A stretch of 26,684 nt of DNA from a virus: the IMG/VR virus record IMGVR_UViG_3300017613_003240, positions 1-26,684 of that record; one strand, given 5' to 3'. Shown here in pieces: positions 3-25,795 of this stretch. The notes beneath the pieces are model-generated. The model saw nothing but the letters and a program-made list of their open reading frames with translations. It did not search any database and was not told where the DNA came from. A program made the position numbers and the translations under genes. Numbering within the stretch: position 1 is the stretch's first letter; each line of letters starts with the position of its first letter.

Positions 3-1145
3 CTCCAGGACTTGCTCTACCTAAAACTCAAGTTCCCTGTCCAGGTCCAGAGGAGTACTCGACGTCCCACTACAGATGTCGACGCTCTGAACCGCCTTGA
101 GTTAAAGACCAAACATCCGATTTTCAAACACATCAAAGACTATCGGAAGTATTCCAAGCTCATTAGCACCTATATCGAGATGAAGCTTGGCGAAAGGAGT
201 AGGATGCACACCTCCTACGACCCTACCGGCACAGTTACTTGGCGTCTATCCTCCTATGAGTCCCATCTGGGAGGAGGCGGCAATCTCCAGAACATCCCGA
301 AGCGTGACGAGGAAGGACGCGAGATTCGGAAGATGTTCGTTCCTGATGAAGGATATGTGATGATTGCTGCAGATCTATCTCAGGCTGAGGATCGCTATGT
401 CAACTGGAAGGCCGGCGACATCAAGGGGATTGAGGACTACCAGGCGGGGAAAGATCCTCATTGGGAGAACTCTATAATGTTCTTCGATCTGGAACCTGGC
501 CTCACCTACAACTCCTCTAACCCTGAGCATTGGAAGATGAGAAACAACCTCACCAAGCACGCTAACCATGCTAACAACTACGACATGGGGCCTCAAAAGT
601 TTAGGGAGCTTCTCCTAAAGGCTGGCTACAATGAGTATACCCTCAACGACTGCAAGGCTCTCCAACAGAAGATCAAACGAAAGAAACCTATGATCGAATC
701 ATGGAAGGCTTGGGTTCGGAACAAGATCACCCAAAATCGTACCCTCGTTACTGCCCTCGGTCGTAAGAGAATCTTCTACGGGAGGATCTCCGATGACCTA
801 TTCCGCCAAGCGTATGCCTTCGATCCCCAGAGCACAATCGGGGAGCTGATGAGCCTGTGCATCAAGAGGTTGCACGAGGAACTCTACGAATTTGGCCTCC
901 GCATCCTGATGAATTCCCACGATGAGGTTATATGCCAGGTACCTATGGGCCAAGAACACAAGTTCATCCCGTTGATGAAGAAGGTAATGGCAATTCCCCT
1001 GGAGGTCACTGACATCTATGGGCAAGTACGAGAGCTTGTGATCCCTGTCGACTTCAAGGTTGGAATGAGTTGGGGAGACTTAGAGGATTACCACTACGAT
1101 GTCCAAATGTTGGACAAAGGAGTTAATGATGACGAAACTGATTGA
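3..1145 (+). CDS. Family A DNA polymerase, polymerase domain (5' partial)
   Basis: This is the C-terminal polymerase domain of a Pol I/T7-type replicative DNA polymerase. The frame is open to the left edge of the window, so the N-terminus, including any 3'-5' exonuclease, lies outside; the first in-frame start-like codon (TTG at 12) is not trusted. Numbering residues from that codon, motif A is ADLSQAEDRY (about 120-129, compare DYSQIELR), a motif B-like stretch with Arg177, Lys182 and Tyr190 follows, and motif C is NSHDEV (about 301-306), giving both metal-binding aspartates. The SSYESHLGGGGNLQNIP segment matches the usual template-binding NLQNIP motif. Motif B is unusual: His stands at Lys+4, where Phe or Tyr is common, and the Arg-Lys spacing is one residue longer than normal. 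The 3' end overlaps the next gene by 17 nt and contains the first copy of a conserved palindrome/ribosome-binding block. Confidence 0.93.
   Translation, partial: LQDLLYLKLKFPVQVQRSTRRPTTDVDALNRLELKTKHPIFKHIKDYRKYSKLISTYIEMKLGERSRMHTSYDPTGTVTWRLSSYESHLGGGGNLQNIPKRDEEGREIRKMFVPDEGYVMIAADLSQAEDRYVNWKAGDIKGIEDYQAGKDPHWENSIMFFDLEPGLTYNSSNPEHWKMRNNLTKHANHANNYDMGPQKFRELLLKAGYNEYTLNDCKALQQKIKRKKPMIESWKAWVRNKITQNRTLVTALGRKRIFYGRISDDLFRQAYAFDPQSTIGELMSLCIKRLHEELYEFGLRILMNSHDEVICQVPMGQEHKFIPLMKKVMAIPLEVTDIYGQVRELVIPVDFKVGMSWGDLEDYHYDVQMLDKGVNDDETD
1093..1123 (+). promoter_or_regulatory. Conserved palindrome-plus-RBS block, copy 1
   Basis: The block reads ACTACGA, then TGTCCAA-ATG-TTGGACA (palindrome with 7-bp arms, 1100-1116), then AAGGAGT. 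It ends exactly 5 nt before the ATG at 1129. The same 31-nt block occurs at 15074-15104 and 25765-25795 on the other strand; 25 of 31 positions are identical in all three, and the distance to the ATG is identical. This copy lies inside the C-terminal coding sequence of the DNA polymerase. It may be an operator, a phage promoter or a short RNA hairpin next to the ribosome binding site; the sequence alone does not decide. Confidence 0.8.
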
Positions 1146-1329
1146 CGATACCGACCTATTAGAGCGTTATTGTAACCTACAAGGCGATACCTACAAAGTC
1201 CTATCGCTTAGTGGTGAGTATGCTTTCCTAATAATGGCAGTAGACGAAGTACGGGGCGTTGGTGCCCTTCACATTGCTCCAATCAAGCAAGTACGGGAGG
1301 GACTGATAGATGAGCGAGAGGAGGTGTGA
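1129..1329 (+). CDS. Small protein of unknown function, 66 aa
   Basis: I do not recognise this protein. It begins MTKLIDDTDLLERY, has a predicted beta-rich middle (YKVLSLSGEYAFLIMAV) and no cysteines beyond one, and no membrane segment. The ATG at 1129 is preferred over the ATG at 1126 and over starts further upstream because the AAAGGAG ribosome binding site (1116-1122) is well spaced from it, and because the two other copies of the upstream conserved block also sit exactly 5 nt before their ATG. It overlaps the end of the DNA polymerase gene by 17 nt and the start of the following helicase-like gene by 20 nt, so it belongs to the replication operon. Confidence 0.75.
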   Translation: MTKLIDDTDLLERYCNLQGDTYKVLSLSGEYAFLIMAVDEVRGVGALHIAPIKQVREGLIDEREEV

Positions 1330-2485
1330 GAATTGGCTAAAGACTCTTGGCCAAGTAGTGGATCGCACCGAAGCCCCAGCTCACTATTGGCTCTGGAGTG
1401 GACTCTTTACTTTGGGAGCTGCGATGGAGCGAAAGGTATGGGTGCCCTATGGACTCGATGACATCTATCCGAACCATTACATCATCTTGGTATCTCCACC
1501 AGGGAAATGTCGCAAGGGAGGACCGATTGCACTCTCGAAGAGGTTCCTTGAGAAGGTACAATGTACAGTTAGCAAGGATTCGACATCTAAGCAGGCACTG
1601 TGTAACGAACTCGCAGCTTCATTTGCTCAGGTCGTGCTGCCTGAAATGGGTACGGTTCAACAGAGCCCTATGGCTGTCATCTCCAAGGAGTTCTCCTCCC
1701 TGCTGAGCGTCGACCCCAAGCAGATGATTGAGTTCCTTACCGACATCTACGACTCTCATGATGTATGGGAATATAGGGTATTAAGTCGTGAACCAGAGAA
1801 ACTCTACGGCCCCTGCGTCGGCCTATTCGCTGCAACCACCCCAACCTACATGGCCAACAACCTGCCCTATGAGGCCTTCGGAGCTGGGTTCTTCTCTCGT
1901 GTAGTCTTTATAATTGGCACCGAGAAGAAGCAGAGAATCCCAAGGCCGATGCTTGACGAGGAGGAGCGATACCTGATGAAAGACCTCGTTCACGACCTGG
2001 GGATTATTCGCCACCTAAGGGGGCCATTCCAATGGGAGGATAAGGCAGGTGAGTACTTCGATGCTTGGTACAATGAGTTGGATGTCAAGTATGCTGAGAT
2101 CAAGGACGAGAGGTTCCACGGGTTCATAGAGAGGGCACACATCTCGGTACTCAAAACCGCTATGTGTATTCGAGTCTCCTATAGTGATGATCTAACCTTC
2201 ACGGTCAACGACATCGGACAGGCTATTGAGGAAGTCAACTCGATATTTCCAACCCTCTCTATGGCCTTTGGCGCTATGGGTAGGAGTGAGAGGAGCCAGG
2301 ACATACAGGACGTGATGAACCAGCTGAAGGTGGTAAGCCCGATCTCGTTCTCACAGCTCCTTGGAGACAACTGGATGAACATGACTTCTCCAGCCCTTCG
2401 TGAGGTGATTGACGTGCTCCAGAAGCGGAAGATGATTCGCTCGGAGTATAGGGCTGATGGCGAGGAGTGGTATTATTGGCTATAA
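1310..2485 (+). CDS. DUF3987-like replicative helicase/ATPase
   Basis: The 391-aa protein resembles DUF3987/RepA-like phage ATPases that act as the helicase part of the replisome and are often encoded beside family A polymerases. An atypical P-loop, SPPGKCRKG, lies at about 62-70; it lacks the standard GK[S/T] but the PPGKCRKG form is what I associate with this phage group. A Walker B-like strand (MAVISKEFSSLL, about 121-132), a sensor strand ending in TTP (about 176-178) and a possible arginine finger (AGFFSRVVFI, about 192-201) follow in the usual order. The C-terminal 80 residues look like a winged-helix domain (ALREVIDVLQKRKMIRSEY). The start ATG has GGGAGGG about 8 nt upstream. No primase zinc finger or TOPRIM is present. 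The helicase role is inferred from family and context. Confidence 0.72.
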   Translation: MSERRCENWLKTLGQVVDRTEAPAHYWLWSGLFTLGAAMERKVWVPYGLDDIYPNHYIILVSPPGKCRKGGPIALSKRFLEKVQCTVSKDSTSKQALCNELAASFAQVVLPEMGTVQQSPMAVISKEFSSLLSVDPKQMIEFLTDIYDSHDVWEYRVLSREPEKLYGPCVGLFAATTPTYMANNLPYEAFGAGFFSRVVFIIGTEKKQRIPRPMLDEEERYLMKDLVHDLGIIRHLRGPFQWEDKAGEYFDAWYNELDVKYAEIKDERFHGFIERAHISVLKTAMCIRVSYSDDLTFTVNDIGQAIEEVNSIFPTLSMAFGAMGRSERSQDIQDVMNQLKVVSPISFSQLLGDNWMNMTSPALREVIDVLQKRKMIRSEYRADGEEWYYWL

Positions 2486-2882: not shown

Positions 2883-3064
2883 TGAAAAGAAGACTTAAAG
2901 CAGTGCTGAGTTTTTGGGTAGCAATACTTGCGGTGATGAGTGCAGTAGCTATTGTTTTCGGCTTGCTCTCATGTACTCACCCTTTAGTGGTACCAATCGC
3001 AGTAGGTGTCCTTATATTTGTCTCTTTCAGCTATGTAATATGGAAAGGCGAAGACGAAGACTAA
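2882..3064 (+). CDS. Small membrane protein, 60 aa
   Basis: The protein begins MKRRLKAVLSFW and has two predicted transmembrane helices, about residues 9-28 (WVAILAVMSAVAIVFGLL) and 35-54 (LVVPIAVGVLIFVSFSYVIW), with basic residues at the N-terminus and acidic ones (GEDED) at the C-terminus. I chose the ATG at 2882 because it overlaps the stop of the previous gene as TAATG, which suggests translational coupling; a longer reading from 2813 would run through the previous gene. No function is recognisable; a two-helix layout would also fit a holin-like protein, but the position next to replication genes gives no support for that. Its stop codon overlaps that of the convergent gene on the - strand. 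Confidence 0.65.
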   Translation: MKRRLKAVLSFWVAILAVMSAVAIVFGLLSCTHPLVVPIAVGVLIFVSFSYVIWKGEDED

Positions 3065-6000
3065 GGTCTCATAACCTCCTCAAAGATCTTCTTCGCTTCC
3101 TTAACTGTGAGCTTGGGCCTCTTACGAGCTGCACGGCCAACGAGTTCCTTGGCCTTCCTGGCTCTAAAGCCCTGGCTCATAGCCGCTTTGGTGAGATCAA
3201 AGGGTTTGAACTTAATACCAGTGGCGTAGCTGAGAGCGGAGTAGAGGCCTTGATCACTCTCCGCCACCAGACTTCCTGCCTGCGGGTATGCTCTCTCCCA
3301 ATCGTTGAGAAAGGGGAAGGCGGTTTGGAGGGCATGCTTCCATTGAGGATCCATCCCCAACACAAGCTTCCCAGTCCTACTATCTCGGATTGGCTCCACT
3401 CCTGCGTACTTGTGCAACCAGTTGGGCATCCAAGTGACATAGAAGGGAGCTATAGACTTCTGCCCAGGCTCCGATAGCTTCCCCACCTTTGGCCAGGTAC
3501 GCACGTTCATACCTATCTGAATCATAGTCCAGACAGGAGTGAGGGCTGAGATCCATGTGTTAAGTCTCCACATCGTGTTTAGGTCGTCGGGTGGTAAGTC
3601 CAGCTTGGCATAGATAGGGTTGTCGTTGGTGGTAGTCCAAGGTGTTCTCCTGAAGTTGTCTTCCTTCATCCAGTTGTATCGCATGAGCTGTTCCTCGGTA
3701 GGTGAAGCTGCACTATCCGGCCAGAGCTGCATCCCATGATCCGTAGCAGTACTGATGTCTCCCATCCGAGCATACTTCCAAGGCTTGGTAGCAACCATCT
3801 CCAGTTGGAGAGGAATGTTCTTACGGAGCCAGGTGTAGAAGGGAAAGATCCTCTTCATTGTCCTACGCTCGAACTCGGTTAGCTCAGTGTAGTCGAACAG
3901 ATACTTCCTCACATGGGCTGCTGCCTTCTCAATTTTAGCGGTATTGCCCTTCGCTCCCTTCGTGATCCCGAGCTTCTTCATCTGATCTATGAAGACACCG
4001 AGACGAGCCGTGTCCTCCACTCCAGTACCGAACTTCCTACCCGCCCTGCTGAGAGTTTGAAAAGGATTCCAAGGTTGCTCTCCTACCCCTACCTTACGAG
4101 CGAGGGCTCCCCTCGTCTCCACTATGTGAAGCTCCCTCTGAGCAAGTGTCGGTACATCTCCACCCATCCAACCATAGGCTCGGACTCCATGCCTGTCTGC
4201 AATACGAAGGAGTTCCTCTGCCGCAAACCCTTCAATCTTACGCCCAGTCTTGAGCTGGATGGTTGCTGCCTCCGCAAGTCGCTGTGGAATCTTGGCTGCA
4301 TTAACGTCTCCAAGATACATCTGCCAGGTGTTAGAGATTGCGTTCCTCATATGGAAGGGCCACCTCATACTGGTCGCCATTGACTTCCACATATGCACAG
4401 CCTTGTCCATCGCCCCGATGAAGGCCTTGGTCGATGCATCTGTACTGAATACCTTGAAAGTTTCCTTGATCTCCTTAGCGTACTCACTCGGTAAGATGTG
4501 TACGGTGTCACCTGCTCCACCTTTAACCAGGGTTGCAGCCTGCTCTGGGTTCAACTCAATGACTCCTCTACCCTTCATCTTCTTGAAAAGTTGAAAGAGA
4601 GTATCCTCTTGACCCAACTCCTTCGCAACACTCTCTACCCCACTCTCCTCGACTGCCTTCAAGGTACGCCTTAACTCCTTAAAGAACATCCCCTTCATGC
4701 GAGGAGAACGTAGGTTGGTAGTGGCTGTGACAAAGGAGAAACCCTTGGGGATTAGTAACCTGTAGGCATTGTCCAAATCCTGGATGTCTGCAAGATCTAC
4801 TCCCTTCCCCAACAGTGCCTCGATATTATCTGCGTGCTTCATTGCTCTGGCAGCTCTCGATCCAAGCTGTTCAGTGTATAGGTCACTTAGCTTAACACCA
4901 AATTCACTGAGGGAAGTGTCAATGAACTGCTTCCAGGCGATAGCACTCTCACCAACCATCTTTCGGATAGCGTAGCCTCGGAACCAATTGTCGACAGGTA
5001 CAATGTCCTTCAGAGGCCCACCCTTGAGCCAGTCCTCATGGATAACCTTCTTCGCCTCCTCGGTCGTCTTGAAATGCTTAGCCTTCCCATAGAATGGATC
5101 AGCCCTGTAGCCCATCTTAGTGAAGAACCCAGTTTGCTTCTTGGACATGAGCTTTCCACCCTTCTCTACGAGCTTCCCATACTCGTAGATACCAGGGAAG
5201 TAGTCGTCAATGAGTTTCTTCTCGTCGAGGATACCATGCTTGACCTCCCTCTTAGCAATCTCGCCAAACCCCTCCACGATGTCGTCAAAGTGCTTCTGGT
5301 ACTCTGGCAACACCTCCTCGGCCAGCCCCATCTGCCTTAGACGAATCAGCTCCGCAGCTGCAACGTTCGGATCTTGGCCAAGCCCCTTGGCTACCTTCCT
5401 GAAGTCATCCCAGCGTTGGATAAACTCTCGTCTTGACAACCTACGGATGTCGTTGAGCTTGCGTTGTAGATCTCCATATAGCTCATAGGCCCCAGGCACT
5501 CTCCGAAGGGTATGCCCAGGTATGAACCTCTCCAACTGTCGACTGATAGCAGGAGCCTCAGCGACCTTCCTCCCAACTGTCTTCATGATCTTAGTGGTCT
5601 TGGTCAAATCATCTGCAGCTTTGAGGAGGTCAGGAAGTTTCAACAACCTACCTATCTTCCCATACCAAGCCATTGGAGCGAAGTTGATAGGATCAGCAAC
5701 TATATCTAGGCCAAGCCCCATCGGAACCTCTACCCAAGGATGTCTTCCAGGGATCACCCTCTCCATCACGTCAATCCAGGAGCCCTTGGTCTCTCCCTTG
5801 AGGCCCTTCCAGGCTGCCGGCAAGATCGGCTCTCCCTTTTCATAGGCCTCATAGGCTCCTACCACAGAGTACTGTCCTCTTGCAAAGAGATCCAACGTCT
5901 TCATGAGGAATCCCATCTCCTCCGTATCCGCCATCCTATTGTCTTGGAGTTCTCTGCTAAAATTCACCGGTGCGACCTTGTCAAGGGCCTTGTCTCGATT

Positions 6001-6087
6001 CTTCAAAAGGTCGAGCGTTGTCCTATCTTTGGACAATCCTCGGTAATCGGGATGCCCAGCTAACTCCATCACTCTCTCGATTCCCAT
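3061..6087 (-). CDS. Large internal virion / DNA ejection protein candidate, 1008 aa
   Basis: This is the last and among the largest genes of the late operon, placed like gp16 in T7-type phages, which is packaged inside the capsid and ejected into the cell to form the DNA channel. The protein is basic, mostly helical, and rich in amphipathic segments. Its C-terminal half holds a segment that I recognise from large virion proteins of other environmental phages (IFPFYTWLRKNIPLQLEM, about 745-762). Unlike T7 gp16, its N-terminus (MGIERVMELAGHPDYRGLSK) shows no lytic transglycosylase motif. The ATG overlaps the stop of the upstream gene as TAATG. The gene ends with a TAG whose bases overlap the stop of the convergent + strand gene. 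The internal virion role is inferred from size, order and composition. Confidence 0.6.
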   Translation of the reverse strand: MGIERVMELAGHPDYRGLSKDRTTLDLLKNRDKALDKVAPVNFSRELQDNRMADTEEMGFLMKTLDLFARGQYSVVGAYEAYEKGEPILPAAWKGLKGETKGSWIDVMERVIPGRHPWVEVPMGLGLDIVADPINFAPMAWYGKIGRLLKLPDLLKAADDLTKTTKIMKTVGRKVAEAPAISRQLERFIPGHTLRRVPGAYELYGDLQRKLNDIRRLSRREFIQRWDDFRKVAKGLGQDPNVAAAELIRLRQMGLAEEVLPEYQKHFDDIVEGFGEIAKREVKHGILDEKKLIDDYFPGIYEYGKLVEKGGKLMSKKQTGFFTKMGYRADPFYGKAKHFKTTEEAKKVIHEDWLKGGPLKDIVPVDNWFRGYAIRKMVGESAIAWKQFIDTSLSEFGVKLSDLYTEQLGSRAARAMKHADNIEALLGKGVDLADIQDLDNAYRLLIPKGFSFVTATTNLRSPRMKGMFFKELRRTLKAVEESGVESVAKELGQEDTLFQLFKKMKGRGVIELNPEQAATLVKGGAGDTVHILPSEYAKEIKETFKVFSTDASTKAFIGAMDKAVHMWKSMATSMRWPFHMRNAISNTWQMYLGDVNAAKIPQRLAEAATIQLKTGRKIEGFAAEELLRIADRHGVRAYGWMGGDVPTLAQRELHIVETRGALARKVGVGEQPWNPFQTLSRAGRKFGTGVEDTARLGVFIDQMKKLGITKGAKGNTAKIEKAAAHVRKYLFDYTELTEFERRTMKRIFPFYTWLRKNIPLQLEMVATKPWKYARMGDISTATDHGMQLWPDSAASPTEEQLMRYNWMKEDNFRRTPWTTTNDNPIYAKLDLPPDDLNTMWRLNTWISALTPVWTMIQIGMNVRTWPKVGKLSEPGQKSIAPFYVTWMPNWLHKYAGVEPIRDSRTGKLVLGMDPQWKHALQTAFPFLNDWERAYPQAGSLVAESDQGLYSALSYATGIKFKPFDLTKAAMSQGFRARKAKELVGRAARKRPKLTVKEAKKIFEEVMRP

Positions 6088-13324: not shown

Positions 13325-14418
13325 TTCATGGCCTCCTTCTTAGCCTTCCCACTAATCTTCCTCCCTATCTCCGCCAGATCAATCTCCTTATAGTGTTCCT
13401 TCAAGTGATGGTAGGGAGCATCCTCCACCGCCTTCGTCCACTTCTCCATCTGGGGAACCCCATGCTTCCAACGCCACTTCTGCATAGCCGGTTCGGTCAT
13501 TGCTCTCTCATCGAGATATGTAGCATAGGCTGACCCCATCCCTGTGTCGAACTCTGAGGGAAACATCTTGAGCTCGAACTCACTGTAGCGTGCGTCAGGT
13601 GAGTAGAGGATACCTCTATACCCTTTACTTTGAAGGTTGTACGTGAGTTGCTCGTTGAACTCCCTTGCTGGAACCGCTCTCTTGAGATCTCCAAGGTTCT
13701 CAATATAAGCGAGGTCAGGGTACTCCTCAGCCAGATCAAAGATAGTCTTCTCATAGGCCTCGTTCATCACCTTTGCATGAGGTTCGTGGGTTGGGAAGAG
13801 GATCGTCTTGAGCGGATCGCCTCCAAACTCAGGCTTAACCCTAAGGAACTTCTTTCTCATCGTACGAGATGCAACCATCTCCTCACAAGCCACTCGCATC
13901 TCGTCTACAAACCCCGGTCTTCCATAAAACACATCAAGGAACCTTTTCCTGGCCGCCTGATAAAGGGCTTCCCCTCTCGGATTCACCACTCCACTAAACG
14001 AGGGGTTCACCGCTACATGAGGATCCTTCGTAAGGCTTGTCCCTACCGGCTCCCCGAACAAACTACCCTTTCGCCTTGTAGCTGCCATAGTGCTTGCTTC
14101 CTCAAGAGGAGGATGGGTACTCCTACCGTGCCACCATGCCCCACTAAGGATCTCACGAAAGAGCTCGCCAAGAGGATCAACCTCTTCCATTCCCCTCGCA
14201 GCTGCCCTATCCACCTGTATGCCCTTCCGCAAGGTCTTGGCAACTGCCGTCGTCCTCTTGATCTCCCCGATAGCAGTGACGTCAACTTCGGCTTTAGGCG
14301 CCGCATAAATACTCGGCACGAAGTCTGGATGCTCTCGCTGAATCCACTCCGGAGGCGTACCACTAAGAGGCCATACAGGATACTGCCTGAACATCTCTCT
14401 TATCTTCTCTCCGGCCAC
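13321..14418 (-). CDS. Neck-region protein, possible ADP-ribosyltransferase, 365 aa
   Basis: I cannot name this protein with certainty. Several segments resemble phage ADP-ribosyltransferase (ART) domains: AWWHGRST (about 94-101), GSLFGEPVGTSLTKDPHVA (about 118-136), where ARTs keep a G-x-G-x-P-V-Y/T-S/T strand, and a C-terminal KGYRGILYSPDARYSEFELK (265-284), like the family's KGYDGIxY followed by an acidic strand. Residues 1-90 and 300-365 are helical and charged, ending in a Lys-rich tail. It sits between two adaptor-like genes in the late operon, so the product may be a virion component, as T4 Alt is. An alternative is a purely structural neck protein. Start GTG at 14418 overlaps the previous stop as TAGTG. 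Confidence 0.45.
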   Translation of the reverse strand: MAGEKIREMFRQYPVWPLSGTPPEWIQREHPDFVPSIYAAPKAEVDVTAIGEIKRTTAVAKTLRKGIQVDRAAARGMEEVDPLGELFREILSGAWWHGRSTHPPLEEASTMAATRRKGSLFGEPVGTSLTKDPHVAVNPSFSGVVNPRGEALYQAARKRFLDVFYGRPGFVDEMRVACEEMVASRTMRKKFLRVKPEFGGDPLKTILFPTHEPHAKVMNEAYEKTIFDLAEEYPDLAYIENLGDLKRAVPAREFNEQLTYNLQSKGYRGILYSPDARYSEFELKMFPSEFDTGMGSAYATYLDERAMTEPAMQKWRWKHGVPQMEKWTKAVEDAPYHHLKEHYKEIDLAEIGRKISGKAKKEAMK

Positions 14419-15068
14419 TATGCCTCCCCTTGTTGCTTATACCTATAGCGAGCCAACGCCCTATTGTGATGCTTGAACTCCTGCTGAGCACCTATCGCCT
14501 TGAGATAGCGTTCATACTCTCCCATGGCCATAGTGTCCATCCCCCCAGCCCTAAGCAAAAGGTAGTACTTCCCATAATGCACAAGAGCATCCTCAAGCTC
14601 CTCTCGTGTGGTGATGAAGTTGCTCGCCAAGGAGTAGTGCTTCGGAGTAGCAACGACATCTAACTCGATGATACCACCATCGCTCGAGTAACAAGGATAG
14701 ACCATCAGCACCGATGGGGAGAGGGGTACATATTCTCTCGGAGCCCCTCTCCCAAGCATGAAGTTGGCATCCCTTCTTACAATACTTATCAATGAGGCAC
14801 AGTCGAGTTCCCTCTCCTGCTCTCGTAAGTAGGCTCTGCGAATGAACAACGGGTAGGAGTTGGTAGCACTTAGAGAATAGAACATCACATCCTCCTTGAG
14901 TGGTACCATCACCTTGTCGGTGAACAGATTAGTAAAGAAGCAACACTCATCTATGGCATCCCCAAGAGCCTCCCGCAACTCATCATCGCCATCCCATACC
15001 TCGGCGGTAGTCAAATCCTCATGGATCTCCTCCAGTATCTGCTGTTCCAAATCTGTTAGTGTTGCCAT
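14418..15068 (-). CDS. Head-tail adaptor-like protein, 216 aa
   Basis: The protein begins MATLTDLEQQILEEIHED and shows the pattern of short neck adaptors placed after the head genes of podovirus-like genomes: an N-terminal helical part with LREALGDAIDECCFFTNLF (about 31-49), a beta part with MFYSLSATNSYPLFIRRAYL (about 61-80), and a C-terminal helical part (ELEDALVHYGKYYLLLRAGG ... YERYLKAIGAQQEF). The ATG at 15068 is chosen over an upstream TTG at 15098 because the latter falls in the palindrome and the conserved block at 15074-15104 puts its ribosome binding site just before this ATG. The stop overlaps the GTG start of the next gene (TAGTG). The exact adaptor identity is inferred from position and pattern. 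Confidence 0.6.
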   Translation of the reverse strand: MATLTDLEQQILEEIHEDLTTAEVWDGDDELREALGDAIDECCFFTNLFTDKVMVPLKEDVMFYSLSATNSYPLFIRRAYLREQERELDCASLISIVRRDANFMLGRGAPREYVPLSPSVLMVYPCYSSDGGIIELDVVATPKHYSLASNFITTREELEDALVHYGKYYLLLRAGGMDTMAMGEYERYLKAIGAQQEFKHHNRALARYRYKQQGEA

Positions 15069-15073
15069 CTCCC

Positions 15074-15104
15074 ACTCCCTTGTCCAAATATTGGACAACG
15101 TAGT
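15074..15104 (-). promoter_or_regulatory. Conserved palindrome-plus-RBS block, copy 2
   Basis: Reading on the - strand, ACTACG precedes the perfect palindrome TTGTCCAATATTTGGACAA (15080-15098, 8-bp arms) and then GGGAGT, ending 5 nt before the ATG at 15068. It fills most of the 39-nt gap between the unknown gene at 15108-15449 and the adaptor gene. Together with copies at 1093-1123 and 25765-25795 it defines a phage-specific element. The arms are fully complementary here, so a short RNA hairpin with a 3-nt loop is possible, as is a dimeric protein binding site. Confidence 0.82.
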
Positions 15105-15851: not shown

Positions 15852-17177
15852 CTACCTCCACTTCTGCCAAAAGTAAATTGTTACAGCTCTAAGGCCTAAA
15901 CGCACCATTGTACGCCTAACCCTCCCCTTATCCATATTAATATGTTGCGGGTTAGTATAATCCCTATTATCAAAGTAATTGGTAAGGATTACTCCCCCAA
16001 CCTTAAGCATCCCAATTATACCCTCCATCTCCTCCTCAAGACCCTCCGGATTCATATGCTCTATTGCGTCAAGGAGCAGTACGAAGTCGTAGGAGGCATC
16101 AGGCTCTGGAAGCTTGGCCACTACAACTGCATCCGCCAGCCCGTACTTCTTGATCCTCCACTCGATGAAGTCTCTACAATACTTGTTAGCATCACAAAAG
16201 ACCACAAAGTGACCCAAGCGAGCAAACACGAATCCCACCGGTCCACTCCCACAGTAGTGATCAACTCCTCTACCGACGTTACTCTTGCCGAAGAGTTCGA
16301 GTGTCTCAAGATCATACCTGTTGACATCCTCTCTCGAGTGAAACCAGACATTCCTTGCGAAGGTCTCTATGCCCAGATCGGAGTAGTACTCGTAGAGATG
16401 ATCTCGATCAGGCTCCAGGCTATTCAACCTGTGCTCCTCACCTATCTTACCAAGCTCTATGAGAGTCTTACCGCTAAACTCACAGGCATCGAGCTGATAG
16501 GGTTTAAGGAGATTGGGTGATGGAAACTGCAGCTCACCCTCCAACCTATCCAATGGCTTGATCTCAATAATCTCCCTCGTTTCCCTGAGGTGACCAATAG
16601 AGATCGAGGTATCACACCAAACTGTGAAGCCGGCCTCCCTTGCCTTCCGACAGATCTGTATGTCTGTACCGAACTCGAACTCAGGTGCGAACCATGGACT
16701 GTCGATCTTGTCAAAGAGCTTCATGTTGATCATCATGCAGCCACCACCGGTGATGTCTACCATCTGCAACTGCCATGAAAGATCTTCATAGATCATAAAG
16801 CTCGGACCTCCCTCATACTCCCTCATCACTACGGGAAGGTAATCACTACCCCTCTGTGCATACAAGGCTCCAACTATTCCCCTCTCAGGATCGTCCTTGA
16901 GGTGTTGGATCAGTTTACCTACCAAGTCCTGGTGGTTATCGAGGATATGATCGTCATCGAGCATTAGGAGCCATTGAGAATCCACCTGCAAAGCTGCTTC
17001 AACAATAGCATTCCTTGCCCTAAACTGCTCACTCTTGGATTTGATAGCCAAGAAGAAATCATACTCTGGCTCTCTCCTCCCCATGTGATACCCGAACCTC
17101 ATGTAGCTATCGAGGATCTCAGGAGGCACTGGGCCATAGCAGGGTATCCCTATCGTAACCTTCTCTTTCTCAGTCAT
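15852..17177 (-). CDS. GT2-like glycosyltransferase fused to SAM-dependent methyltransferase, 441 aa
   Basis: The N-terminal half (about 1-210) is a family 2-like glycosyltransferase: opening strand VTIGIPCYGPV, nucleotide-sugar DDDH motif (LLMLDDDHI, about 70-78), GGGCMMI (about 144-150) and a region with GTDIQICRKAREAGF and a late His197. The C-terminal half (about 290-441) is a class I methyltransferase: motif I VDHYCGSGPVGFVFA (about 305-319), acidic FCDANK (about 327-332), motif IV-like DASYDFVLLLDAIEHM (about 360-375), and MLKVGGVILTNYF. Its likely role is to add a sugar and to methylate a sugar or protein acceptor; the acceptor is not evident. The gene overlaps the zinc-ribbon gene by 8 nt and follows a sulfotransferase-like gene, forming a modification island between head and neck genes. 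Confidence 0.82.
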   Translation of the reverse strand: MTEKEKVTIGIPCYGPVPPEILDSYMRFGYHMGRREPEYDFFLAIKSKSEQFRARNAIVEAALQVDSQWLLMLDDDHILDNHQDLVGKLIQHLKDDPERGIVGALYAQRGSDYLPVVMREYEGGPSFMIYEDLSWQLQMVDITGGGCMMINMKLFDKIDSPWFAPEFEFGTDIQICRKAREAGFTVWCDTSISIGHLRETREIIEIKPLDRLEGELQFPSPNLLKPYQLDACEFSGKTLIELGKIGEEHRLNSLEPDRDHLYEYYSDLGIETFARNVWFHSREDVNRYDLETLELFGKSNVGRGVDHYCGSGPVGFVFARLGHFVVFCDANKYCRDFIEWRIKKYGLADAVVVAKLPEPDASYDFVLLLDAIEHMNPEGLEEEMEGIIGMLKVGGVILTNYFDNRDYTNPQHINMDKGRVRRTMVRLGLRAVTIYFWQKWR

Positions 17178-17415
17178 TATCCACCCCCTCCATGGGAGCG
17201 AATAGAGCCAAGAAATCTGGATCTACTCCCCACTTCGCCATCAGTTTCATCTCTTTGTCACTAACCTTCTGAAGGGCTGAGACCCTCCTTGAGCCACAAA
17301 ACTTACAACTCCCAACATGTGACAACACCTTCCTGTCCAGGATCTTCTGACACCCATAGCACCTGACCACAGGGTCGTTGAAGACTCCTGGCTTCTTCAC
17401 ATCATATTTACTCAT
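17170..17415 (-). CDS. Zinc-ribbon protein, 81 aa
   Basis: The protein begins MSKYDVKKPGVFNDP and contains two metal-binding pairs, CYGC and CKFC, 16 residues apart between pairs, the pattern of a zinc ribbon. The C-terminal part (SDKEMKLMAKWGVDPDFL) looks helical. I chose the ATG at 17415 because it forms an ATGA overlap with the stop of the sulfotransferase-like gene and has AGGACAGGA upstream; a longer reading would begin inside that gene. It is sandwiched between two transferases, so it may be a partner of the modification island, or a nucleic-acid-binding regulator. No specific family is recognised. Confidence 0.72.
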   Translation of the reverse strand: MSKYDVKKPGVFNDPVVRCYGCQKILDRKVLSHVGSCKFCGSRRVSALQKVSDKEMKLMAKWGVDPDFLALFAPMEGVDND

Positions 17416-18152
17416 TTCCTGTCCTCCCAGTTTTTCTCGACATGCCAACTCTCACCTTTGTTGAGTTGCATATCGAGCGTGTTCGTGATAGCCTTTGTGC
17501 TCGGAGCCTCGACCTCAAGCCAGTCATACATCCTCTTCACCTCATCGGTGTTGCGATCGGAGAATGCTGCAAAAGGTACCTCGAGCATATCATAGGGCAG
17601 TTCCTGGATGAAATCCTCTATCAAATCATAGTACTCTGCAACCTTCTCTCGTCGAGTAGAACCCTTCATATTAGGTCTCCCGACAGAGAAGGGACTGTTG
17701 CCCTTGAAGAACCCCTTCCTATACATAGACTTGATCACATCATCCCTATCCCTATATAGATGAATTATCTTCACATTGGGAAAGTTCTTCTTAACCGTAT
17801 GAGTAAACCACACAGCCCTTCCATTTACTTCCCCAAACACTTGTCCGAAACTACACACCTGGGAGACCAACTCCCATCTACAAGAAAGATATACCGTAGA
17901 CCATATATCTGCATATGTAGATTGACAGATGTTTGCTTCCATCCACCACAACCTCGGCATCGGCTCGTGGAAAGCCACAATGGTTGGACTTAGGTTAAGT
18001 AGTTCCGTCAAAGTCTTTGTTCCTGACCTAACATGGGTTACAACCCAAACCATCGGAGCCTCCTTCCCCACCATACGCAGTGGAGACCTTGCCAGTACTT
18101 CTCCACATTTGGCTCCGGTTCTGGTTAGAGCTCGTACAAGGTACGTATCCAT
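17412..18152 (-). CDS. Sulfotransferase-like protein, 246 aa
   Basis: The sequence fits a small PAPS-dependent sulfotransferase. A 5'-phosphosulfate-binding loop follows the first strand, VVTHVRSGTKTLTELL (about 37-52; the family pattern is RSGTTxL), then HEP (62-64). The 3'-phosphate-binding element is IIHLYRDRDDVIKSMY (about 129-144), with Arg134 and Ser142 in the usual places (RxxxDxxxS). The C-terminal part (YDWLEVEAPS ... NKGESWHVEKNWEDR) resembles the closing region of the family. The enzyme would transfer sulfate to a hydroxyl, most likely on a glycan, given the glycosyltransferase-methyltransferase two genes downstream. The gene begins after a 42-nt spacer with AAGGAGACAGG upstream and overlaps the zinc-ribbon gene as ATGA. 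Activity and acceptor are inferred. Confidence 0.75.
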   Translation of the reverse strand: MDTYLVRALTRTGAKCGEVLARSPLRMVGKEAPMVWVVTHVRSGTKTLTELLNLSPTIVAFHEPMPRLWWMEANICQSTYADIWSTVYLSCRWELVSQVCSFGQVFGEVNGRAVWFTHTVKKNFPNVKIIHLYRDRDDVIKSMYRKGFFKGNSPFSVGRPNMKGSTRREKVAEYYDLIEDFIQELPYDMLEVPFAAFSDRNTDEVKRMYDWLEVEAPSTKAITNTLDMQLNKGESWHVEKNWEDRK

Positions 18153-25381: not shown

Positions 25382-25759
25382 TTAGTCTATGGTTAGTATT
25401 AGTCTAAATTTTGTCGGAGCAGACGGTAATCCCTCAAGCACTTTGAACACCTCATTACTCCAGTCGGACGGGCTGACATTAGTATCTGCAACATGTTTCC
25501 TAATCACGAAATAGTATGTATGCTCACCTACCTCCAACGGGAGCGTTGCAGTATGCTGATACTCCTCCTGGTCACTTATATAGTTAATCTGGACAAGCTT
25601 AACATATGGCCCACCTTGAGCATCAACAGAATAATGGATCTGCCAGAAGTCTCCAGTGGCCATCATATGCTGTTCCCACCCAAATCGTAGGTCTTTCGCA
25701 AACAACAACCCAGGCACTAACAATACTACCATCACAACCGTAAACATTAGCTTTTTCAT
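25382..25759 (-). CDS. Secreted FN3-like protein, 125 aa
   Basis: The ATG at 25759 gives a clear Sec signal peptide, MKKLMFTVVMVVLLVPGLLFA (cleavage likely after residue 21), which longer readings would bury. The mature 104 residues look like one fibronectin type III-like beta domain: FGWEQHM, WQIHYSVDA, a PLEVGEHTYYFVIRKHV strand pair, and SPSDWSNEVFKVLE, with the Tyr/Trp spacing common to FN3 folds. A conserved palindrome-plus-RBS block lies 5 nt upstream of the start. It is encoded between the endolysin and the holin-like gene. An exported phage protein in this place might act in the periplasm during lysis or at the cell surface, for instance to block further infection; nothing proves either. 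Confidence 0.7.
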   Translation of the reverse strand: MKKLMFTVVMVVLLVPGLLFAKDLRFGWEQHMMATGDFWQIHYSVDAQGGPYVKLVQINYISDQEEYQHTATLPLEVGEHTYYFVIRKHVADTNVSPSDWSNEVFKVLEGLPSAPTKFRLILTID

Positions 25760-25764
25760 CTGCA

Positions 25765-25795
25765 ACTCCTTTGTCCAAATGTTGGACAACTTAGT
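25765..25795 (-). promoter_or_regulatory. Conserved palindrome-plus-RBS block, copy 3
   Basis: On the - strand, ACTAAG precedes the palindrome TTGTCCAACATTTGGACAA (25771-25789, perfect 8-bp arms) and AGGAGT, ending 5 nt before the ATG at 25759. The block begins inside the last codons of the endolysin gene (stop at 25793-25791). It shares 25 of 31 positions with both other copies and sits directly before the secreted FN3-like gene. Confidence 0.82.

Follow-up and report, generated by a model that had tools for sequence, protein, structure and literature searches.

A palindrome joined to ribosome binding sites is one phage's version of a lineage-wide network of probable control sites

Genome-wide operator networks in phages are known so far mainly from temperate phages such as L5 and SPbeta, in which they silence the prophage. 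In L5 and the other cluster A phages, the repressor gp71 acts at more than 20 short sites, the stoperators, which lie in short intergenic spaces and at promoters, and this one protein halts both the initiation and the elongation of transcription (PMC9283540). Each stoperator is a 13-bp, asymmetric and strictly oriented site that is bound by a monomer (PMC9283540). In SPbeta, a large temperate phage, one repeated element with a 15-bp motif, SPBRE, is found at promoter regions in many intergenic regions and answers to a single master repressor, the recombinase-like protein MrpR (PMC10516654). The Mnt operator of phage P22, which is bound by a ribbon-helix-helix repressor, is a single site at one promoter pair, just before the arc start codon, and is composed of GTCCA half-sites (AGGTCCA-CGG-TGGACCT). 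In coliphage N4, the promoters of the virion RNA polymerase are inverted repeats with a 3-nt centre that need a paired DNA hairpin, and the RNA starts just behind the right arm. Our search of the mostly open-access literature returned no description of the palindromic element that we report here.

The window, the whole stretch of 26,684 nucleotides that we analysed, is a 26.7-kb IMG/VR virus record (IMGVR_UViG_3300017613_003240) that encodes the last part of a family A DNA polymerase and a primase; a late arm of capsid, portal, terminase and endolysin genes runs convergently. The C-terminal part of the polymerase (3..1145, +) was assigned by alignment and by a match to phrog_17 (E 2e-58). Behind it, a small gene without a family match (1129..1329, +) heads a unit with the DNA primase (1310..2485, +; phrog_14296, E 6e-36). 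The terminal gene of the late arm (3061..6087, -) encodes 1008 aa and has no Pfam match. Among the structural genes of this arm we also noted a glycosyltransferase-2 and methyltransferase fusion and a sulfotransferase (15852-17177 and 17412-18152, -), whose sequences suggest modification of a surface glycan or of the virion. The collections that we searched contained no close relative of this phage, the nearest kin showing 25-35% identity. As baits, the window terminase returned no match and the window capsid returned three distant loci, and the lineage was gathered with the primase family.

We found that three copies of a 31-nt near-palindrome in the window are fused to a Shine-Dalgarno (SD) sequence: ACTACGATGTCCAAATGTTGGACAAAGGAGT at 1093-1123 (+), ACTACGTTGTCCAATATTTGGACAAGGGAGT at 15074-15104 (-), and ACTAAGTTGTCCAACATTTGGACAAAGGAGT at 25765-25795 (-). 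The first-pass annotation had reported these copies, and its description was borne out: 25 of the 31 bases are identical in all three, and the end of each copy lies 5 nt from an ATG (1129, 15068 and 25759). Copy 1 falls within the 3' end of the polymerase gene. Copy 2 occupies the gap that separates gene 15449-15108 from gene 15068-14418 (14418..15068, -; 216 aa, no family match), while copy 3 starts over the endolysin stop codon and finishes at the SD of gene 25759-25382 (25382..25759, -; 125 aa, with a signal-peptide-like N-terminus and no family match). Each 31-mer is a near-dyad: its 3-base centre is flanked by arms of 8 bases (7 in copy 1), and a loose step of 3 bases separates these from the outer ACT/AGT. 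In a profile built from the three copies, these score 50-52, the next true site scores 6.4 and the best of 20 shuffles scores 11.6, and a scan of the window with this profile gave no further close match.

With shorter patterns, the element reaches beyond these three copies. The 15-base core with at most three mismatches has nine matches in the window, both strands counted, vs 0.79 expected, and exact TGTCC-N7-GGACA occurs four times vs 0.025 expected (Poisson P 1.6e-8). The fourth site (6012..6042, assigned to no strand; core 6019-6035) reads TTGTCC-N7-GGACAA, has outer bases CGAG/CTCG that pair too, and lies about 60 nt into the terminal 1008-aa gene, near its 5' end, without an SD or ATG. 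It was recovered twice, by the pattern and by an unsupervised palindrome search that grouped it with the other three. The original count of three therefore stands for copies linked to a ribosome binding site but not as a total, because this intragenic core site had been missed. The annotation had further argued that coding constraint does not explain the repeats, and for copy 1 we agree: in an alignment with three kin, it is located in the C-terminal tail of the polymerase, after SWGD, and this tail is absent in two of the three and shows no conservation in the third, which means that the copy is not accounted for by conserved coding.

The repeated palindrome is real, and it is one phage's version of a lineage-wide network of probable control sites. 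The eighty kin loci that we found via the primase are mostly metagenomic and all distant from the window phage, at 25-30% identity, and we searched them for palindromes without a preset motif. Several uncultured kin phages carry about 7-20 dispersed sites per record, in lists that depend on the chosen thresholds and on gene calls made in this analysis. Among 270 shuffled controls, two gave three copies and none gave more. The sites are dispersed odd palindromes whose half-site differs by phage: TGTTCAA (L080/G001, and also L088), TGTTTAA (L087/G003), CGTTTAA (L074/G011), TTGTAA (L077/G002), TGWTCAA (L061/G005) and TGATTAA (L081). In Desulfofustis phage LS06-2018-MD01 (OP947158, L051), which has the same polymerase-primase-convergent layout as the window, TTRCTATGTCCCAA-N-TTGGGACATAGYAA occurs nine times, and its consensus core, TGTCC-N7-GGACA, is that of the window. 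Of these nine sites, six lie 15-80 nt upstream of an annotated start (P 7e-5 for a zone that makes up 10% of the genome). Six of the nine lie outside any CDS, which applies to 5% of the genome (P 1.5e-6).

The link to the ribosome binding site also recurs. The right arm continues directly into the SD (ACTATGTTCAAAATTTGAACAAAGGAGA...ATG) in the window as well as in G001, G005 and G006, which indicates that the palindrome-plus-RBS unit is general. We oriented 68 sites by whichever gene lay nearest downstream; 51 of them had a recognisable start preceded by an SD, with the start codon mostly 18-31 nt from the site centre. The exact motif with its SD was present in no record besides the window. 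A blind IMG/VR scan for TGTYCAANNNTTGRACAAAGGAG, a palindrome with an SD, gave seven matches on five contigs, each followed by an ATG. All five contigs proved to be multi-copy, with 13, 3, 9, 4 and 3 further copies, and both near-complete (long) ones encode the same primase family (E 1e-124 and 1e-131). The search for additional copies and for conservation in relatives that the first-pass annotation had proposed thus yielded the fourth site and the kin networks, and its idea was not refuted.

Several observations border on this survey. The core TTGTCCAANNNTTGGACAA matched 39 IMG/VR stretches in unrelated contexts, none with an SD and ATG. In eight of the loci (L014, L028, L029, L013, L039, L037, L043 and L047), TTGTCCAANNNTTGGACAA stands beside further TTGTCC half-sites in apparent regulatory regions, as if this half-site were perhaps used in other repressor operators of other viral contigs. 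Vibrio phage VS-ABTNL-3 has four CAATCG-N6-CGATTG palindromes (L057 174, 6569, 23360 and 38801); differing inner bases still pair in most of them, and we rejected them as the same element, as they look like repeated hairpins or terminators. Matches of the lineage in genome_contigs were phage-sized contigs. Six such contigs of 45-57 kb (L166-L171) were binned in MAGs labelled WOR-3, Nanohaloarchaea, Desulfobacterales, Planctomycetota, Nitrososphaera and Dokdonella, and some of these host labels may be binning errors.

The positions of the sites are conserved even as their sequences change. A site is present at the methyltransferase/DNA polymerase junction in eight phages, and recurs there in further kin with still other half-sites. 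Copy 1 has a counterpart at G005 43493, where the order is also polymerase 3' end with the site inside, small gene, primase. The fourth window site has counterparts 70 nt into the giant terminal gene of G001 and 50 nt into that of G002, and BLAST detected no homology between these genes and the window 1008-aa gene. In OP947158 and G006 a site lies just at the primase 3' end. In G003, G011 and L081, a site is located at the tail-to-tail junction of the arms, where no gene starts, so the sites are not only promoters or translation signals. We also observed that a small gene shared by homology between G003 and G011 has a site within its coding sequence, rather than before its start, in both phages (G003 22240 and G011 14310).

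We next asked whether the element acts as DNA or as RNA. An RNA hairpin ahead of the SD, controlling translation or mRNA processing, had been among the options originally listed, and it would suit sites that are mostly intercistronic and near an SD. Two window copies can form an 8-bp stem with a 3-nt loop, and the three 31-mers alone fold with z -2.5 to -4.2; in 53-nt context, however, their folding does not stand out (z -1.0 to -1.8), and an Rfam search gave no match up to the family cut-off. Across the 68 oriented sites, Watson-Crick pairing of the arms did not exceed that after within-genome permutation of the right arms in any of seven genomes (P 0.44-1.0), a comparison with reduced power for compensated changes, as sites were gathered by how closely both of their arms resembled a single seed in each genome. 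Compensatory changes that would keep the arms paired were not seen, against what a hairpin would predict. Arm mismatches fall at offset 3 in nine sites, offset 4 in 18 and offset 6 in nine, and in the mRNA sense A-C outnumbers G-U by 51 to 22, the reverse of what an RNA stem should give. As to orientation relative to transcription, the core is symmetric, the SD is on one side only, and offset 8 is biased, with 20 A-C vs 6 G-U (P 0.009). Given the missing within-genome covariation and the excess of A-C, we regard an RNA hairpin as very improbable. An N4-type virion polymerase promoter was rejected as well, as stem pairing is not kept and the giant proteins have no polymerase domain. Between phages, both arms change together, as expected of a symmetric protein tracking its site. 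Independent arms, the excess of A-C over G-U, phage-specific half-sites and conserved junction positions all favour the operator, another of the options first proposed.

Two rival explanations treat the element as a DNA site. If it were a phage-specific promoter or activator site, the dyad would recruit a phage factor or polymerase, and mRNAs with short leaders would start within it or just behind it. Some 10-20 sites over both arms, at the heads of gene groups and near start codons, would fit, as would upstream sequence that lacks a consistent sigma-70 -10 element, so that ordinary promoters do not explain the gene-group heads; we found no sigma-70 promoters at the window copies and no positional enrichment of the -10. 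Yet sites also occur inside genes and, in several kin, at the tail-to-tail end of the arms, which disfavours the promoter as the sole role, and the SD and ATG already fill the downstream space. No single-subunit RNA polymerase was found in a PF00940 search whose control was also silent, and the giant terminal proteins had either no match or matches to large polyvalent protein domains, none to polymerases. We consider this explanation unlikely. It is less probable still that the sites have a structural or maintenance role, in which a phage protein would use them to compact, replicate, segregate or package the DNA and transcription would hardly be affected: their fairly even spacing over the genome and the sites with no gene behind them would agree with such a role, but it needs neither the strong preference for positions before starts nor the SD fusion seen in several phages.

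A protein that reads the sites may be visible in the kin. A family of small proteins (64-89 aa; PRFSFEITPEQ...) is encoded in 26 kin loci, and palindrome networks were found in 7 of these 26 vs 2 of 64 loci without it (Fisher P 0.002), with the window counted among the latter although its early region is missing. In a reverse search from the family, 10 of 21 long loci, partly the same phages as in that test, had networks of at least three copies and shuffles had none, while in about half of the long loci with the family no network was detected. The family is also present in three of the five blind-scan contigs. A site lies directly upstream of its gene in G002 and G017 and, in G003 and L088, heads a small group of genes to which it belongs; G006 has sites, and no member was detected there. 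A fold model (pLDDT 88) places helices 16-25 and 31-50 behind an extended segment; these predicted helices and the pattern of the sequence fit a ribbon-helix-helix monomer. Searches with the family against Pfam, a PDB profile and Foldseek gave no significant match, and neither did comparison with Arc/Mnt, where it aligned in the same register as Mnt at an hhalign probability of 2%. This small, ribbon-helix-helix-like phage protein is our leading candidate for the binder, a tentative assignment. Because the window is a fragment that lacks the early region, the window phage's own regulator is not seen.

Other candidates were set aside. A conserved family of 139-177 aa beside a Sak4-like ATPase, which we take to be DUF669-like, was read as a recombination partner instead. 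The ParB_N-methyltransferase is disfavoured because related methyltransferases also occur in kin without sites, sigma-70 region 4-like proteins are present in some genomes only, and the "transcriptional regulator" annotated at 2296-2838 in OP947158 has no family support. We also noted a small early protein of G003 (L145 19249-19605) with a sigma-70 region 4-like HTH and an NrdR-like zinc ribbon, which, judged by these domains, is possibly a second phage regulator.

The reading that we favour, with moderate confidence, is that a dimeric DNA-binding regulator uses the element as its dispersed operator, which serves as an intercistronic gate on transcription. Inverted half-sites TGTCC/GGACA, 7 bp apart and with looser outer bases, would be bound by a dimeric, sequence-specific protein, perhaps phage-encoded; that a DNA-binding protein acts at the sites at all we judge to be quite likely. 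The sites stand at numerous cistron borders in both arms, where they overlap or adjoin the SD that follows. A few are intragenic, and kin also have them at the tail-to-tail end of the arms. The bound protein would most plausibly be a repressor or roadblock that blocks or meters transcription at cistron borders; whether it blocks rather than activates is, on present evidence, an evenly balanced call. With a site at each boundary, one protein probably gates the reading of many genes at once: a change in its level would reset many operons together, and sites on ribosome binding sites and at arm ends would permit stopping without truncating genes.

A broader and more speculative proposal is that an integrase-less, podophage-like lineage runs its infection programme via genome-wide, palindromic, RBS-fused gates on transcription, placed at many cistron borders, whose sequence each phage has rewritten along with a small protein. 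We found no integrase (PF00589) in 10 kin records, with a control that was positive in 14 of 14, and a kin phage has been predicted to be strictly lytic (PMC10370329); lysogeny, the classical reason for a genome-wide silencer, is thus lacking. The network is placed on ribosome binding sites, its lineage has no detected integrase, and its gene-junction positions are kept while its sequence changes phage by phage. It would offer a natural series for the co-evolution of a DNA-binding protein and its 10-20 sites, with a candidate binder and targets that are directly testable, and, if the proposal is true, an immunity-like network of specificities among non-integrating phages.

How, then, does this network compare with the systems described above? 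Like the N4 promoters, the element is an inverted repeat with a 3-nt centre; unlike them, its arms are often mismatched and do not covary, and no N4-type polymerase was found. The P22 Mnt operator is nearest in sequence and in its placement before a start, but its half-sites are 3 bp apart vs 5 here. The nearest analogues in logic are the L5 stoperators and SPBRE/MrpR. SPbeta likewise has a single repeated intergenic element, and fusion to an SD is not described for SPBRE in the accessible text (PMC10516654). With the L5 stoperators, this network shares many dispersed copies of one site and a location in short intergenic gaps. It differs in that its site is an inverted repeat of two half-sites, fused to or abutting an SD, where the L5 site is asymmetric and read by a monomer, and in that stoperator phages are temperate and carry integration genes, where no integrase was found in the kin records here; for this network, a block to elongation is a proposal. 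Because of the differences in site symmetry and lifestyle, our claim is that the network works like the stoperators, not that it is one of them.
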